Assembly (NCBI GenBank): GCA_014534095.1 | Contig: JACVSD010000076.1 | Coordinates: forward strand, 1-7,937 | Length of the DNA: 7,937 bases | Direction: 5' to 3' | Origin: Nitrospiraceae bacterium | Lineage (GTDB): Bacteria > Nitrospirota > Nitrospiria > Nitrospirales > Nitrospiraceae | Part shown: positions 3,873-7,614 of the stretch, piece after piece | How positions within the stretch are numbered: position 1 is the stretch's first letter | Layout of the letters: each line of letters opens with the position of its first letter | Position numbers and translations under genes: made by a program | Notes under the pieces: generated by a model | The model's input: the letters and a program-made list of their open reading frames with translations, nothing else | Told to the model about the DNA's origin: nothing | Database searches by the model: none

Positions 3873-5108
3873 TTAACCGCCCTTTGAAATGGAAATGATG
3901 GGCGTCTTCGCGTTTGAGACGTCGGTCACCGTCATTTGGAAGAGATTAGCGAGCACCGAGAAGCACTCCTGGTTCCAGCTGGGAAGCATGCCGCCCGTGA
4001 CGGGATATTTCCGGATCGCGTAGTGCTGTCCCTCGAACTCGACGGAGAATTCATAGTCGCGCGGGGCTGCGGCGGTTTCTTCGACCTCCAGGACGCGGTC
4101 GGGATTCATCGTGACCGGGCCGGAGCGGGGGTCGGGATCGACATGGAAGCCCGGGTCCTCGGCAATACTGCGGGCCACGAAAGAGATGATCGCATTGAAG
4201 CTCCTCAGCTGAATGACACCCCGCATGGGCCACTCGCCGCCTGGAAAGCCTGGCCGGATGTCGAGAAAGACATGGTCTAACGGATACCGCTGGATGACGT
4301 CGTTGAGCTGGCGGCGCTCTTCATTGGTGAGCGTCCAGGGTTCATAGTTGGTGATAGCCAGACGGCCGATGACTTTGCGGGTGAGGCTCTCGGCTTGGGA
4401 TTTGGATTGCGTGGTCCACCGATAGCCTTTGTCCAGCGCAGCCACGGCTTCGGCCGGTGTCAGCGCACGGTCTATGGCCACCGGAAACTGCTCTTCATAC
4501 GTCATCGGTTCGATAAACAAGGTGTGCGCTTGCTGGAGGGAGGCCAAGTGCAGCAGCGCCTGTCGGAAGGCGATAAACTCCGCGCGACGGCCCGGCGTAT
4601 TGGAGAGCACCTGTTTGGAATCCCGCTCCTGTTCCAGCGTCATGCCTCTGGCCATGAGCTGCAGAATCATATTGATGTCAAATCCTTGATGAGCCAGAAA
4701 ATCGAAGTGCGACTCCTCTAACGAACGCAGAATCCGCTCGGTAAATTCTTCTCCGGAGATGGGAATAATGGTGACCGTCGGATTCTCCGCCACCTGTACG
4801 CCATAGGTGAGATCCACCACGGGGTCCTCGGCGAACGGACCTCGCGCGATGCGGCCCGTCACCCCGGCCGACGTCCGGAAGTCGAAGGTCGCCGCGACAC
4901 TGGAGACGGCAGTGAAATGAACCGGACGATGGTGCCGGGCGCGCGCAATATTGAGTAAGAGCAGCTCAGCTTCGACTCGGCTCACCGTCCGATCGTACTC
5001 GATCACGGCCCGATGCATCGCGATCGGGGAGAGACAGCCGCTCAAGAAAAGCAAACCGGCTCCCGCGATCGTCCAACCTATCCGCATTGCGATGGTGCAG
5101 GCATTCAT
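3873..5108 (-). CDS. outer-membrane lipoprotein of unknown function
   Basis: This 411-residue protein begins with a lipoprotein signal: hydrophobic segment IGWTIAGAGLLFL (10-22) and lipobox LSGC with the lipidated cysteine at 25. Residue +2 is leucine rather than aspartate, which favours the outer membrane. The mature part starts with an amphipathic helix (RAVIEYDRTVSRVEAELLLLNIARARH, 33-59), then HFTAVSSVAATFDFRTSAG (64-82), ENPTVTIIPISGEEFTERIL (108-127), a helical middle, and YEFSVEFEGQHYAIR (352-366) near the C-terminus. I have seen this opening pattern (LLLLNIARAR, then HFTAVSSxxATFDFR) in uncharacterised proteins of several Gram-negative groups, but know no function. The ATG at 5108 has GGAGAG six bases upstream; the internal ATG at residue 8 has none. 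It is divergent from the ECF sigma gene and carries an ECF-type promoter, so it is probably a target of that sigma factor. Confidence 0.88.
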   Translation of the reverse strand: MNACTIAMRIGWTIAGAGLLFLSGCLSPIAMHRAVIEYDRTVSRVEAELLLLNIARARHHRPVHFTAVSSVAATFDFRTSAGVTGRIARGPFAEDPVVDLTYGVQVAENPTVTIIPISGEEFTERILRSLEESHFDFLAHQGFDINMILQLMARGMTLEQERDSKQVLSNTPGRRAEFIAFRQALLHLASLQQAHTLFIEPMTYEEQFPVAIDRALTPAEAVAALDKGYRWTTQSKSQAESLTRKVIGRLAITNYEPWTLTNEERRQLNDVIQRYPLDHVFLDIRPGFPGGEWPMRGVIQLRSFNAIISFVARSIAEDPGFHVDPDPRSGPVTMNPDRVLEVEETAAAPRDYEFSVEFEGQHYAIRKYPVTGGMLPSWNQECFSVLANLFQMTVTDVSNAKTPIISISKGG

Positions 5109-5190
5109 CGGTTTCTCTCCACAGCTATGGGCAGCAAGTTGAAGCGGGTCTTTCGCGATGTGGGGACCCGCCGGTCATCGTTCTCATGTG

Positions 5191-5217
5191 TGTCGTTCCA
5201 CGGCGGCCCACCTTACA
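5191..5217 (-). promoter_or_regulatory. ECF-type promoter of the lipoprotein gene
   Basis: On the minus strand TGTAAG (5212-5217) is followed after exactly 16 bases by CGACA (5191-5195). The expected start near 5185 gives a leader of about 75 bases. The same two blocks at the same spacing occur twice before the exported-protein gene. ECF sigma factors typically use a GTAA-containing -35 and a CG-starting -10 about 16 bases apart. Confidence 0.65.
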
Positions 5218-5240
5218 GTCCATGGCGCAAGCAGACTGCA

Positions 5241-5268
5241 CGTAAGGAGTGTGGTGTTTCGGGCGACT
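5241..5268 (+). promoter_or_regulatory. ECF-type promoter of the sigma/anti-sigma operon
   Basis: CGTAAG (5241-5246) is followed after 17 bases by CGACT (5264-5268). This matches the three minus-strand sites except for the first base of the -35 block and one extra spacer base, which may make it weaker or a chance match. The expected start near 5275 is compatible with either candidate start of the sigma gene. It lies back to back with the lipoprotein promoter, the two -35 blocks being 23 bases apart. Confidence 0.5.
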
Positions 5269-5387
5269 GACTATGAGAACCCAGGGCAGGACTTCCCTGA
5301 GACCGCCGATTTGACGATATGGGAGGCTTTCGCTACCATCTCGCCACATCACAAAGGTTTCAGGGGGCATCTGGGGACGCGGACGCG

Positions 5388-5978
5388 ATGGACTGCAGGC
5401 CACTCTCCGATCCGGAGGCTTGGGTAGAGCAGCACGGAGATTACTTGTTTCGCTGTGCCATGCTTCGCGTCCAGGACCGCGTGCTTGCCGAAGATTTGGT
5501 GCAAGAGACGTTTCTTGCCGCACTCACCGCGCAAGAACGATTCACCGGACAGTCCTCGGAGCGGACTTGGATGGTGGGGATCCTCAAGCATAAGATCATC
5601 GACCGGTTTCGAAAGGACATTCGCGAGCGGCCGGCCGATGATCCGCTCTTAGTGGACGAGACGGAAGACGACGCGTCGTTCGATGAGTCGGGACATTGGA
5701 AGCTGGATCAGACCGCGCCCCTTGATTGGCCCGACCATCCAGGCGCGGTCCTCGAGAGAAAGCAGTTCTGGAGCACGCTTCAACGGTGCGTCGGAACGTT
5801 GCCCCCCACGATGGCCCAGGTCTTCACGTTGCGGGAAGTCGATGAGGTGGAGAGCGGGGCGATTTGCGACATGCTGAAGATCAGCGCATCCAACCTCTGG
5901 GTGCTCCTTCACAGGGCACGGAAGCATTTGCGGCAGTGTCTGGAGGGCCACTTCTTTGGACATCGCGAGGCACATTGA
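5388..5978 (+). CDS. ECF-type RNA polymerase sigma factor
   Basis: This 196-residue protein directs RNA polymerase to a small set of promoters. Region sigma-2 occupies about 10-75 and contains AEDLVQETF (34-42), RF-GQSSERTW (51-61) and GILKHKIIDRFRK (64-76), which cover the core-binding and -10 recognition helices. Region sigma-4 (about 124-186) has LPPTMAQVFTLREVDEVES and the helix-turn-helix ISASNLWVLLHRARKHLR that reads the -35. The linker has the signature SGHW (101-104) and APLDWPDHP, which I associate with the ECF subgroup of TIGR02943 type. There is no extra C-terminal domain. The frame is open back to an ATG at 5319, adding 23 residues without family resemblance; I prefer the ATG at 5388, with GGGGA upstream and family-like length. 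The zinc-finger anti-sigma gene begins six bases after its stop, so the two are one operon. Confidence 0.93.
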   Translation: MDCRPLSDPEAWVEQHGDYLFRCAMLRVQDRVLAEDLVQETFLAALTAQERFTGQSSERTWMVGILKHKIIDRFRKDIRERPADDPLLVDETEDDASFDESGHWKLDQTAPLDWPDHPGAVLERKQFWSTLQRCVGTLPPTMAQVFTLREVDEVESGAICDMLKISASNLWVLLHRARKHLRQCLEGHFFGHREAH

Positions 5979-5984
5979 CGAGCC

Positions 5985-6314
5985 ATGCAGCTGGGACCCA
6001 AGCAAGACGTTGAACGACTGAGACTGGGCATTGGCCCTCTGGTGGGGTGGCTGATTCGTGTGACGCCGACCTGCCAGGAAATGACTCGTCTGCTCTCCGA
6101 CGAGATGGATCGGCCGCTGCCATGGAAGACACGCGCGAAGATGCGCCTGCATTTCCTCATCTGTAAGTGGTGCGAGCGCTATAAGAACCAACTCCGCTTT
6201 CTCCGGCAAGCCGTCCGGCGCCATCCTGAGCAGATTAGCAGTGATGACCCTGCCACACCGAGCCTGTCTTCGGAAGCCAAGGACCGCCTCAAACGGACCT
6301 TGCGCGAGCGGTAA
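5985..6314 (+). CDS. zinc-finger anti-sigma factor (ZAS type)
   Basis: This 109-residue cytoplasmic protein probably binds and silences the sigma factor encoded just upstream. The zinc-binding set is complete: C30 in TPTCQEMTRLLSDEMD, then H56, C60 and C63 in LHFLICKWC (Hx3Cx2C). The spacing C-26-H-4-C-3-C is the same as in the redox-responsive anti-sigma RsrA (C11, H37, C41, C44). There is no membrane segment; the hydrophobic patch GIGPLVGWLI (15-24) is too short to span one. The C-terminal tail after about 80 is polar. The start is uncertain: the ATG at 5985 has only a poor GACGAG site, whereas an in-frame GTG at 6060, after a G-rich stretch, would begin five residues before the first zinc ligand like shorter relatives. 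Unlike most membrane anti-sigmas, a soluble ZAS protein senses a cytoplasmic signal such as oxidation or metal; which one is not visible here. Confidence 0.88.
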   Translation: MQLGPKQDVERLRLGIGPLVGWLIRVTPTCQEMTRLLSDEMDRPLPWKTRAKMRLHFLICKWCERYKNQLRFLRQAVRRHPEQISSDDPATPSLSSEAKDRLKRTLRER

Positions 6315-6380
6315 CCAGTTTCGTCTGTCAGCAAAGCCGGCCGAGGGTGTGGGCGAGGAGAGGAGCGCCCGTCGTGCGGA

Positions 6381-6416
6381 GCGTCGGGGTCGAGCCGGGC
6401 GGCTCAATCCCGACGC
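6381..6416. terminator. long hairpin between convergent genes, probable bidirectional terminator
   Basis: GCGTCGGG (6381-6388) pairs with CCCGACGC (6409-6416). The helix continues with a G-T and a T-A pair, one C/A mismatch, then GAGCC (6392-6396) with GGCTC (6401-6405) around the loop GGGC. It sits between the anti-sigma stop and the convergent exported-protein stop, where a shared terminator is expected. No T-run follows on either strand, so release would depend on stem strength or Rho. Confidence 0.6.
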
Positions 6417-6425
6417 CTGCGGACA

Positions 6426-7460
6426 TTACTCTTCGATGCTGATGATCGGGCAATTCACCACCACGCCGATCGGTCCCCAGGGTTTGCCTTCCGGGCCGGA
6501 CATCTGGCCGGCCAGGCCGAGCTTCGCGACCGTATTGAAATCCATTTGTAGGATTGAATTTTTCACCGGCATCGGCTTCTGCGCCCACACGGAGGCATAC
6601 ACATCCCACATAGGACTGTAGGCGGTTGCGCGTTCGCCCGCCGGAATTTCCTGCACGATGTTGAGCGGATCTCCCTCGCCCAGCAGAGCCGAACTCAATC
6701 CTTGCCGTTGCGGGTTCATTTTGCCGGTCGGGCCGTTGACGATCGGCGCGAGTCCAGTCAATGCGGAACTCGGCGCGTTCGAGCCTTTGTTTGGTAGCGC
6801 TTTAAGATTCGGCGTATAGTTCGCCGCTTCGATCGCTGCGACCGCGGGATCCGAGGCGTTAAACGAGGTATAGTGGACCCGGCGGCCTTCGAAGAATCCG
6901 TCCGTCATGCGAAACGTGGCCACGCGTTTGTCGAGGTCAATACGGATCAGCCGGTCGTGGTGGCCGCTGGTATTCTTGATCTGTGGCGCGTTTAAGACCA
7001 CGCCGTTCGGCAGTTCGATCAAGGGTGTATACAGCGCCTCACCAATCGCTCCGGGCGCCGCTTCCTTCGGAGGAAAGCCCGTCGCGCTCGGCGTGACGAC
7101 CCGCTCGGGCGCAAAGTCCACGCTGCCTAAGAAATGCACGCGGCCGTCGATCAGGCCCACCTTCTGAACGGCCAGGGTACCTTTGCCGTTGGCCATCTTC
7201 GGGCTCCAGTGCACCCCGCGCTGCTCCGCGTCGGCCCGGTCCGACGATTCCGTGACCACGAACCACACAGTCTCGCCGCTCCGCCGTCCTTCGAAAATCG
7301 GCAAAGTCACTTCTGTGTAGTCCGCATTTTCGATGGCGCTCTTGAGCAGGAGCCGGTGCCCCTTCTTCATCCCGATGCCGTCGGCCGCTAGGGCGAGGGA
7401 CGTGGCAGCAATTCCGATCACACATGCGCCGATGCCAAACGATTGTGCAACTGTTCTCAT
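6426..7460 (-). CDS. exported periplasmic protein of unknown function
   Basis: This 344-residue protein has a clear Sec signal peptide (MRTVAQSFGIGACVIGIAAT then SLALA), cleaved after A25 or A26, and no further membrane segment. The mature part has ETVWFVVTESSDRADAEQRG (63-82), FLGSVDFAPER (110-120), NAPQIKNTSGHHDRLIRID (157-175), TDGFFEGRRVHYTSFNASDP (186-205) and, after a Gly/Pro/Asn-rich linker (221-255), YSPMWDVYASVWA (281-293) and VVVNCPIIS (333-341) with the only mature cysteine at 337. Its nearest match in my memory is an uncharacterised family, possibly DUF7482, which I cannot verify. The start is fixed by a near-perfect AGGAGGT six bases before the ATG at 7460; the frame is open further to 7565 without support. 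Two tandem ECF-type promoters precede it, and it is convergent with the anti-sigma gene, so it is a probable target of the sigma factor. Confidence 0.88.
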   Translation of the reverse strand: MRTVAQSFGIGACVIGIAATSLALAADGIGMKKGHRLLLKSAIENADYTEVTLPIFEGRRSGETVWFVVTESSDRADAEQRGVHWSPKMANGKGTLAVQKVGLIDGRVHFLGSVDFAPERVVTPSATGFPPKEAAPGAIGEALYTPLIELPNGVVLNAPQIKNTSGHHDRLIRIDLDKRVATFRMTDGFFEGRRVHYTSFNASDPAVAAIEAANYTPNLKALPNKGSNAPSSALTGLAPIVNGPTGKMNPQRQGLSSALLGEGDPLNIVQEIPAGERATAYSPMWDVYASVWAQKPMPVKNSILQMDFNTVAKLGLAGQMSGPEGKPWGPIGVVVNCPIISIEE

Positions 7461-7466
7461 GACTGA

Positions 7467-7473
7467 CCTCCTA
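7467..7473 (-). promoter_or_regulatory. strong Shine-Dalgarno site of the exported-protein gene
   Basis: On the minus strand AGGAGGT lies six bases before the ATG at 7458-7460. It decides this start over the longer open frame and suggests efficient translation once the gene is transcribed. Confidence 0.85.
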
Positions 7474-7506
7474 AAATATGATGGTGAGTGACATGTCCGT
7501 GGATGA

Positions 7507-7532
7507 GTCGTGAGAAGGGCGCAACCCTTACA
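7507..7532 (-). promoter_or_regulatory. proximal ECF-type promoter of the exported-protein gene
   Basis: On the minus strand TGTAAG (7527-7532) is followed after exactly 16 bases by CGAC (7507-7510, continuing TC). The expected start near 7500 gives a leader of about 40 bases. The blocks and spacing match the distal site and the lipoprotein promoter while the spacers differ, as expected for functional rather than duplicated DNA. Confidence 0.65.
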
Positions 7533-7557
7533 AGGCACGAAGCTCACCAACCGGAGG

Positions 7558-7572
7558 GCCTGCACTGCAGGC
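7558..7572. repeat. 15-base palindrome between the tandem promoters
   Basis: GCCTGCACTGCAGGC is perfectly symmetric around its central base. It lies between the two ECF-type promoters, downstream of the expected start of the distal one, where it could be a regulator site or a hairpin (6-base stem, 3-base loop) in the longer transcript. Confidence 0.45.
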
Positions 7573-7588
7573 GCCGTGTCAGTGAGAA

Positions 7589-7614
7589 GTCGAGCAAGCC
7601 GGGGATTTCTTACA
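7589..7614 (-). promoter_or_regulatory. distal ECF-type promoter of the exported-protein gene
   Basis: On the minus strand TGTAAG (7609-7614) is followed after exactly 16 bases by CGAC (7589-7592, continuing TT). The expected start near 7582 would give a leader of about 120 bases that contains the palindrome and the proximal promoter. Confidence 0.6.

Follow-up and report, generated by a model that had tools for sequence, protein, structure and literature searches.

Does a short motif that recurs before genes for exported proteins mark the targets of the sigma factor encoded beside them? This question is raised by a stretch of 7,937 nucleotides from a Nitrospiraceae bacterium (contig JACVSD010000076.1 of assembly GCA_014534095.1; "the window" means this whole stretch), in which a predicted extracytoplasmic function (ECF) sigma factor gene and its putative anti-sigma gene lie between the genes for a lipoprotein and a second exported protein, and in which the motif TGTAAG-N16-CGAC recurs in front of the latter two. 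We put the probability that the genes and elements of the window form an ECF regulon like that of Neisseria sigma-E and MseR at roughly 0.8. In relatives of the sigma gene the same motif also lies within the coding sequence, and this probable dual-coded self-promoter in the recognition-helix codons is the result most deserving follow-up.

The sigma/anti-sigma pair and the motif copies of the window

The genes and elements concerned are as follows.

5388..5978, plus strand: gene for an ECF sigma factor of the TIGR02943 family, 196 aa; start revised from 5319
5985..6314, plus strand: gene for a 109-aa anti-sigma, predicted to be soluble and to bind zinc; C30, H56-x3-C60-x2-C63
3873..5108, minus strand: exported lipoprotein gene, 411 aa; lipobox LSGC, read by eye
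6426..7460, minus strand: exported protein gene, 344 aa, DUF7482 (PF24298); signal-peptide-like N-terminus, read by eye
5192..5217, minus strand: promoter-like element with putative control of the lipoprotein gene; -35 at 5212-5217, -10 at 5192-5195
5241..5267, plus strand: near-match element CGTAAG-N17-CGAC(T) with putative control of the sigma gene
7507..7532, minus strand: promoter-like element 1 (proximal) with putative control of the DUF7482 gene
7589..7614, minus strand: promoter-like element 2 (distal) with putative control of the DUF7482 gene

The sigma factor reached 184.1 bits against TIGR02943 (cut-off 162.2; scored on a 219-aa reading) and is built of regions 2 and 4 only, with PF04542 and PF08281 over cut-off and no match to region 3. 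The ATG at 5388 is more likely its start than 5319 because the alignment of homologues points there, and the sigma transcript would therefore be expected to carry a 5' leader of about 115 nt. The protein encoded next scored 63.1 bits against NF052368 (cut-off 50) and 23.8 bits against PF13490 (zf-HC2, cut-off 22.2). Its candidate ligands are spaced C-26-H-4-C-3-C, as counted on the sequence. Both family matches and the C30-H56-C60-C63 motif support the claim of an earlier note on this DNA that the sigma gene is followed by a soluble zinc anti-sigma, whereby solubility is judged from the sequence. The spacing is also that of the redox zinc ligands 11, 37, 41 and 44 of RsrA, the anti-sigma of Streptomyces sigma-R (PMC2893595). 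Against the RsrA family itself (TIGR03988) the protein scored 14.9 bits, below the cut-off of 62.5.

TGTAAG-N16-CGAC occurred exactly three times in the 7,937 bases, each time on the minus strand (5192-5217, 7507-7532 and 7589-7614), and zero times on the plus strand. As the earlier note had stated, one copy stands upstream of the lipoprotein gene and two stand upstream of the DUF7482 gene, their spacer sequences are unlike each other, and a near match precedes the sigma gene; the search for (C/T)GTAAG-N15-17-CGAC returned only these four sites. The elements of the lipoprotein and sigma genes are arranged back to back in a single divergent intergenic stretch. In 200 dinucleotide shuffles, searched with N15-18 allowed between TGTAAG and CGAC, the mean was 0.02 matches and none of the shuffles held three or more; a Markov-1 simulation of 1000 windows gave a mean of 0.007 and a maximum of 1. 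Two of the three exact elements have TGTAAGG as their -35 and the third has TGTAAGA; before the sigma gene the -35 reads CGTAAGG. In the four elements CGAC is followed by AC, TC, TT or TG, that is, the window -10 is CGACA or CGACT and not the Neisseria-type CGTCTAA. The remaining TGTAAG pointed out in the earlier note, at 6162-6167, indeed lies in the anti-sigma gene and is not followed by a second block; here TGT AAG forms the C-K codons of the zinc motif (C-K-W-C), with no -10 after it.

The motif, its sigma family and the proposed regulon

We compared the occurrence of the motif with that of the sigma family in a sample of 200 genomes of another phylum (order Burkholderiales), 86 of which encode a TIGR02943 protein over cut-off while 114 do not. 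The pattern TGTAAGG-N14-16-CGACTAA gave 38 matches in 22 genomes, and all 22 belonged to the family-bearing set (22/86 vs 0/114; Fisher 1.5e-9). The spacing was N16 in 33 of the 38 matches. Eight matches lay inside sigma genes; when these were excluded, 19 genomes were left, again all among the 86. The reversed-pattern control produced 14 matches, seven in each genome set. TGTAAG-N16-CGAC is thus supported as a promoter-like signature of the TIGR02943 family, because it was present only with the family and mostly with N16 spacing, and because its -35 matches the GTAAGG of Neisseria sigma-E.

The Neisseria system is also the closest counterpart in other respects. The N. gonorrhoeae pair reached 284 bits against TIGR02943 and exceeded the NF052368 cut-off, so that Neisseria sigma-E/MseR and the window pair share both the sigma and the anti-sigma family. 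MseR ligands 4, 30, 34 and 37 are the same four, at the same spacing, as in the window anti-sigma (PMC2893595). Neisseria sigma-E recognizes a -35 of GTMAGBWTT and a -10 of CGTCTAAH and controls msrA/msrB (PMC2893595); its regulon is small and autoregulated (PMC2893595, PMC3240639). GTAAGG of this -35 recurs in the window elements save for the TGTAAGA copy, whereas CGTCTAA differs from the CGAC of the window, the -10 varying within the sigma family. The targets differ as well, with msrA/msrB and a DoxX cluster in Neisseria and the lipoprotein and DUF7482 genes in the window. The hypochlorite-responsive RpoE2 of Haemophilus influenzae, which is paired with the small anti-sigma HrsE, has MsrAB and a DoxX cluster under its control (PMC7907618). 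Likened by description, this system resembles the window in having a small cytoplasmic zinc anti-sigma that adjoins the sigma gene; it shares the theme of periplasmic repair, but its targets are not those of the window (PMC7907618).

Which genes stand behind the motif in relatives was read for copies outside sigma genes, loci being given for 30 of the 38 Burkholderiales matches. The commonest gene was that for MsrP, at seven loci (three with NF003767 over cut-off, four with PF00174 and a similar N-terminus). Thioredoxin-like proteins were encoded as well, one over the Pfam cut-off (L142) and one below the NCBIfam cut-off (L131), and further genes were those for HvfX, an HvfA-like protein, a DUF2282 protein and ArsS, besides several without an assignment. 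This set of genes agrees with the RpoE2 regulon of H. influenzae, which responds to hypochlorite (PMC7907618). In Hydrogenophaga flava a TGTAAG-N16-CGACT copy is oriented divergently from the sigma gene and precedes a redoxin-like gene, beyond which lies a DUF2282 gene. Plasmids of Klebsiella quasipneumoniae, Acinetobacter ursingii and Enterobacter asburiae carry a sigma relative in the vicinity of msrPQ, DUF692 or DoxX genes. As MsrP, thioredoxin and Hvf/DUF2282 genes are found behind the Burkholderiales sites, our best guess is that the window system serves a response to envelope oxidation or to metal.

A regulon of this kind could operate as follows. The sigma factor (5388-5978) would be held inactive by the Cys-His-Cys-Cys zinc anti-sigma (5985-6314). 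Oxidation, hypochlorite or a thiol-reactive metal may then eject the zinc and free the sigma factor, which would start transcription at the putative promoters before the lipoprotein and DUF7482 genes and also at the weaker element before its own gene. The lipoprotein and the DUF7482 protein, as the predicted effectors of this response, may protect or repair the envelope. The earlier note's regulon of a sigma/anti-sigma pair with two envelope genes is therefore partly supported: the sigma-family motif and the zinc anti-sigma back it, but the description "self-contained" may not hold, as the Burkholderiales sites lie at scattered loci. On the sequence comparisons the note's reading appears mostly right: the window pair adds a member to the Neisseria sigma-E type, and two target families are newly predicted for it. 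DUF7482 and the lipoprotein family of Nitrospira, envelope families that are both uncharacterised, would thereby be tied to a defined stress sigma factor, which gives them a testable role.

Several observations weigh against this regulon. No CGACTAA match was found in 64 of the 86 family-bearing genomes, and the strict consensus is therefore incomplete; moreover, the window elements lack the TAA after CGAC that the Burkholderiales pattern required. With the Neisseria variant CGTCTAA, four matches were obtained in the 200 genomes, each of them in a family-bearing genome; its control, however, gave 12, of which ten also fell in the 86, and this variant therefore proves nothing. The element of the sigma gene itself is mismatched and has N17 spacing, neither a methionine sulfoxide reductase gene nor an Hvf gene was seen among those of the window, and expression of N. 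meningitidis sigma-E was unchanged by oxidative stimuli (PMC2893595). The imperfect copy before the sigma gene would fit the alternative that the elements arose by chance or serve some other regulator, for example as housekeeping promoters or as half-sites of an activator, the sigma factor controlling only itself. We regard this as quite improbable given that no shuffle reached three matches and that the motif follows the presence of the sigma family. It is also conceivable, albeit somewhat unlikely, that the anti-sigma senses a thiol-binding metal, such as copper, instead of oxidants, and that the DUF7482 protein and the lipoprotein handle metal in the envelope. The HvfX, HvfA-like and DUF2282 genes behind the Burkholderiales motif speak for such a role, the DUF2282 proteins being presumably bufferins. 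Bufferins are described as copper-chelating modified peptides (PMC12452194), which counts for the metal alternative as well. Against it stand the predominance of MsrP behind the motif and the invariant columns of DUF7482, in which no metal-binding pattern was seen.

Copies of the motif inside sigma genes of relatives

In relatives, the motif was also found inside the sigma gene itself, at the codons of the region-4 helix-turn-helix, in sense direction and pointing at the anti-sigma gene. The peptide at this place resembles C-K-x-L-x-I-x-[APST]-[TS]-N. We examined 188 genes of the TIGR02943 family from several phyla, a sample that is not random, as matches were taken best first. The duplicates L083, L097, L099, L100, L102 and L186 as well as L020, in which the helix was not aligned, were left out of this count and of that over the first 151 loci; the 188 genes also exclude L022 and L023. 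An exact TGTAAG-N16-CG(A/T)C was present in the helix-turn-helix codons of 77 genes. Cys occupied the helix position in 176 of the 188 and Cys-Lys in 99, where the codons were TGTAAG in 87 genes, TGCAAG in nine, TGTAAA in two and TGCAAA in one. None of 63 ECF genes of other families had Cys-Lys at the helix position, and one had Cys-His (L112). A group of genes, among them L039, L042, L066, L069 and L070, have a helix Cys-Gln spelled TGT CAG, and a single TGTCAG site was seen upstream of a gene, at L096.

The spelling is specific to the helix. Among the first 151 loci, Cys-Lys was encoded by TGTAAG in 75 of 84 cases at the helix vs 19 of 98 elsewhere in the same loci (p 1e-22). The bias was seen in Burkholderiales (40/43, p 3e-10), in Bacteroidota with Kapabacteria (11/12, p 3e-6) and in Omnitrophota with Elulimicrobium (13/14, p 1e-5); in the sample of the class Gammaproteobacteria it was not significant (10/14, p 0.08). 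The -10 is constrained too: with A, P, S or T at the respective residue, the codon was xCG in 67 of 80 cases vs 26.6 expected (94 loci). In a comparison of codon conservation over 14801 pairs below 45% identity and 185 columns (SD over columns 0.075), conservation was highest in two columns, namely that of the TGTAAG Lys, with an excess of 0.39, and that of the xCG codon in the -10, with an excess of 0.31; the excess of the Cys column was only 0.10. On a FastTree tree the exact embedded element underwent 37 changes, and it has therefore often been lost or gained. All ten exact embedded copies of the Bacteroidota sample carry CGTC, because Ser takes the place of Thr there, and seven of them read CGTCTAA, the Neisseria -10.

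All 66 loci with the exact element had an anti-sigma-like frame with the zinc motif next to the sigma gene, as had 27 of the 29 loci with a partial element and 49 of the 56 without one. Between the expected start site and the start of the anti-sigma gene the median distance was 80 nt (quartiles 71 and 89, n = 76). Where a second copy of the form TGTAAG-N15-17-CG(A/T)C(A/T)A was found within 1.6 kb, coding sequence included, its -10 type was the same as that of the embedded copy in 12 of 12 cases (10 CGAC, 2 CGTC); 19 further copies of this form occurred in loci without an embedded element. The locus of Hydrogenophaga flava NBRC 102514 (L017, 8059-10776) has an embedded element plus the divergent TGTAAG-N16-CGACT copy. 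Four loci without an embedded copy contain a free-standing TGTAAG-N16/17-CGAC after the sigma stop codon, namely L062 (46 nt), L101 (9 nt), L211 (11 nt) and L213 (18 nt), and no such post-stop element was found in any of the 95 loci with an exact or partial embedded copy (p 0.018). On the tree, the link between a post-stop copy and loss of the embedded copy was not significant, and the frame that follows the sigma gene at L211 and L213 failed to match the anti-sigma pattern.

Based on these sequence patterns, we consider it probable that in a large clade of ECF sigma factors across several phyla the helix-turn-helix codons double as the sigma factor's own promoter, which would drive the anti-sigma gene about 80 nt downstream. 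Cys-Lys would be written as TGT AAG to give the -35, and [APST]-[TS]-Asn as xCG ACN or xCG TCN to give the -10, with 16 bases between. The active sigma factor would thereby make its own brake from within its own reading frame, promoter and peptide would evolve as one dual-coded element, and loss of the embedded copy would sometimes be accompanied by a free-standing copy just after the stop codon. If true, this is a new wiring of negative feedback, as far as known, and one that scans of intergenic DNA miss; synonymous recoding should then alter the anti-sigma output and leave the sigma protein unchanged. Our literature search, which covered few subscription journals, found no earlier report of an embedded dual-coded promoter of this kind.

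The codon bias might instead reflect a preference for certain codon pairs, a ribosome-binding sequence within the gene (AAGGAG) or some other constraint at the nucleotide level, with no promoter involved. C-K-E codons do yield AAGGAG in some genes. Other findings also count against an embedded promoter. Only 12 of 51 copies have T after CGAC, and Cys-Gln genes use TGT as well (10/11), though TGTCAG differs from the -35, so that something else may underlie some of the TGT bias. The element is missing from seven of seven relatives in the plasmid collection, including those of N. gonorrhoeae (QQMCGISTSN) and B. glumae. The window sigma gene lacks it as does the Neisseria gene: its helix-turn-helix peptide is C-D-M-L-K-I-S-A-S-N, encoded by TGC GAC ... 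GCA TCC, with no TGTAAG-N16-CG(A/T)C. In 30 Bacteroidota genomes, TGTAAG-N15-17-CGTCTAA gave 18 matches, seven of them embedded, vs 22 for the reversed control, and there is therefore no genome-wide excess there. Nevertheless, we judge a cause other than a promoter to be unlikely. TGTAAG is kept also in front of codons for D, A, S, G, R, I, K or N, so that the ribosome-binding sequence is gone and the bias stays; Cys-Lys pairs elsewhere in the same loci do not share the spelling; and both boxes are constrained at promoter spacing.

The envelope proteins and other genes of the window

The 411-aa lipoprotein had no Pfam or NCBIfam match and belongs to a family found mostly in Nitrospira-type bacteria. 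Its structural model (pLDDT 79.0) returned no fold match in the PDB at E<=0.001. The 344-aa protein scored 34.2 bits against PF24298 (cut-off 27.5), and of 7995 scored candidates 1297 were homologues of it at E<=0.001; a PDB fold search with its model (pLDDT 89.9) gave no match, and our literature search found no paper using the name DUF7482. Among the best 120 homologues of each search, the named close ones were Nitrospira, Nitrospiraceae, Nitrospirota or similar, while the distant DUF7482 relatives among the best 120 came from other phyla. Read by eye, the two halves of the DUF7482 protein resemble an internal repeat (FEGRR...ESSD vs FFEGRR...NASD). On the minus strand at 257-622 lies a 121-aa reading frame without a Pfam match that contains a CCPF motif, and a gene for a PilZ-domain protein (PF07238; 3351-3740, minus strand) is located downstream of the lipoprotein gene.

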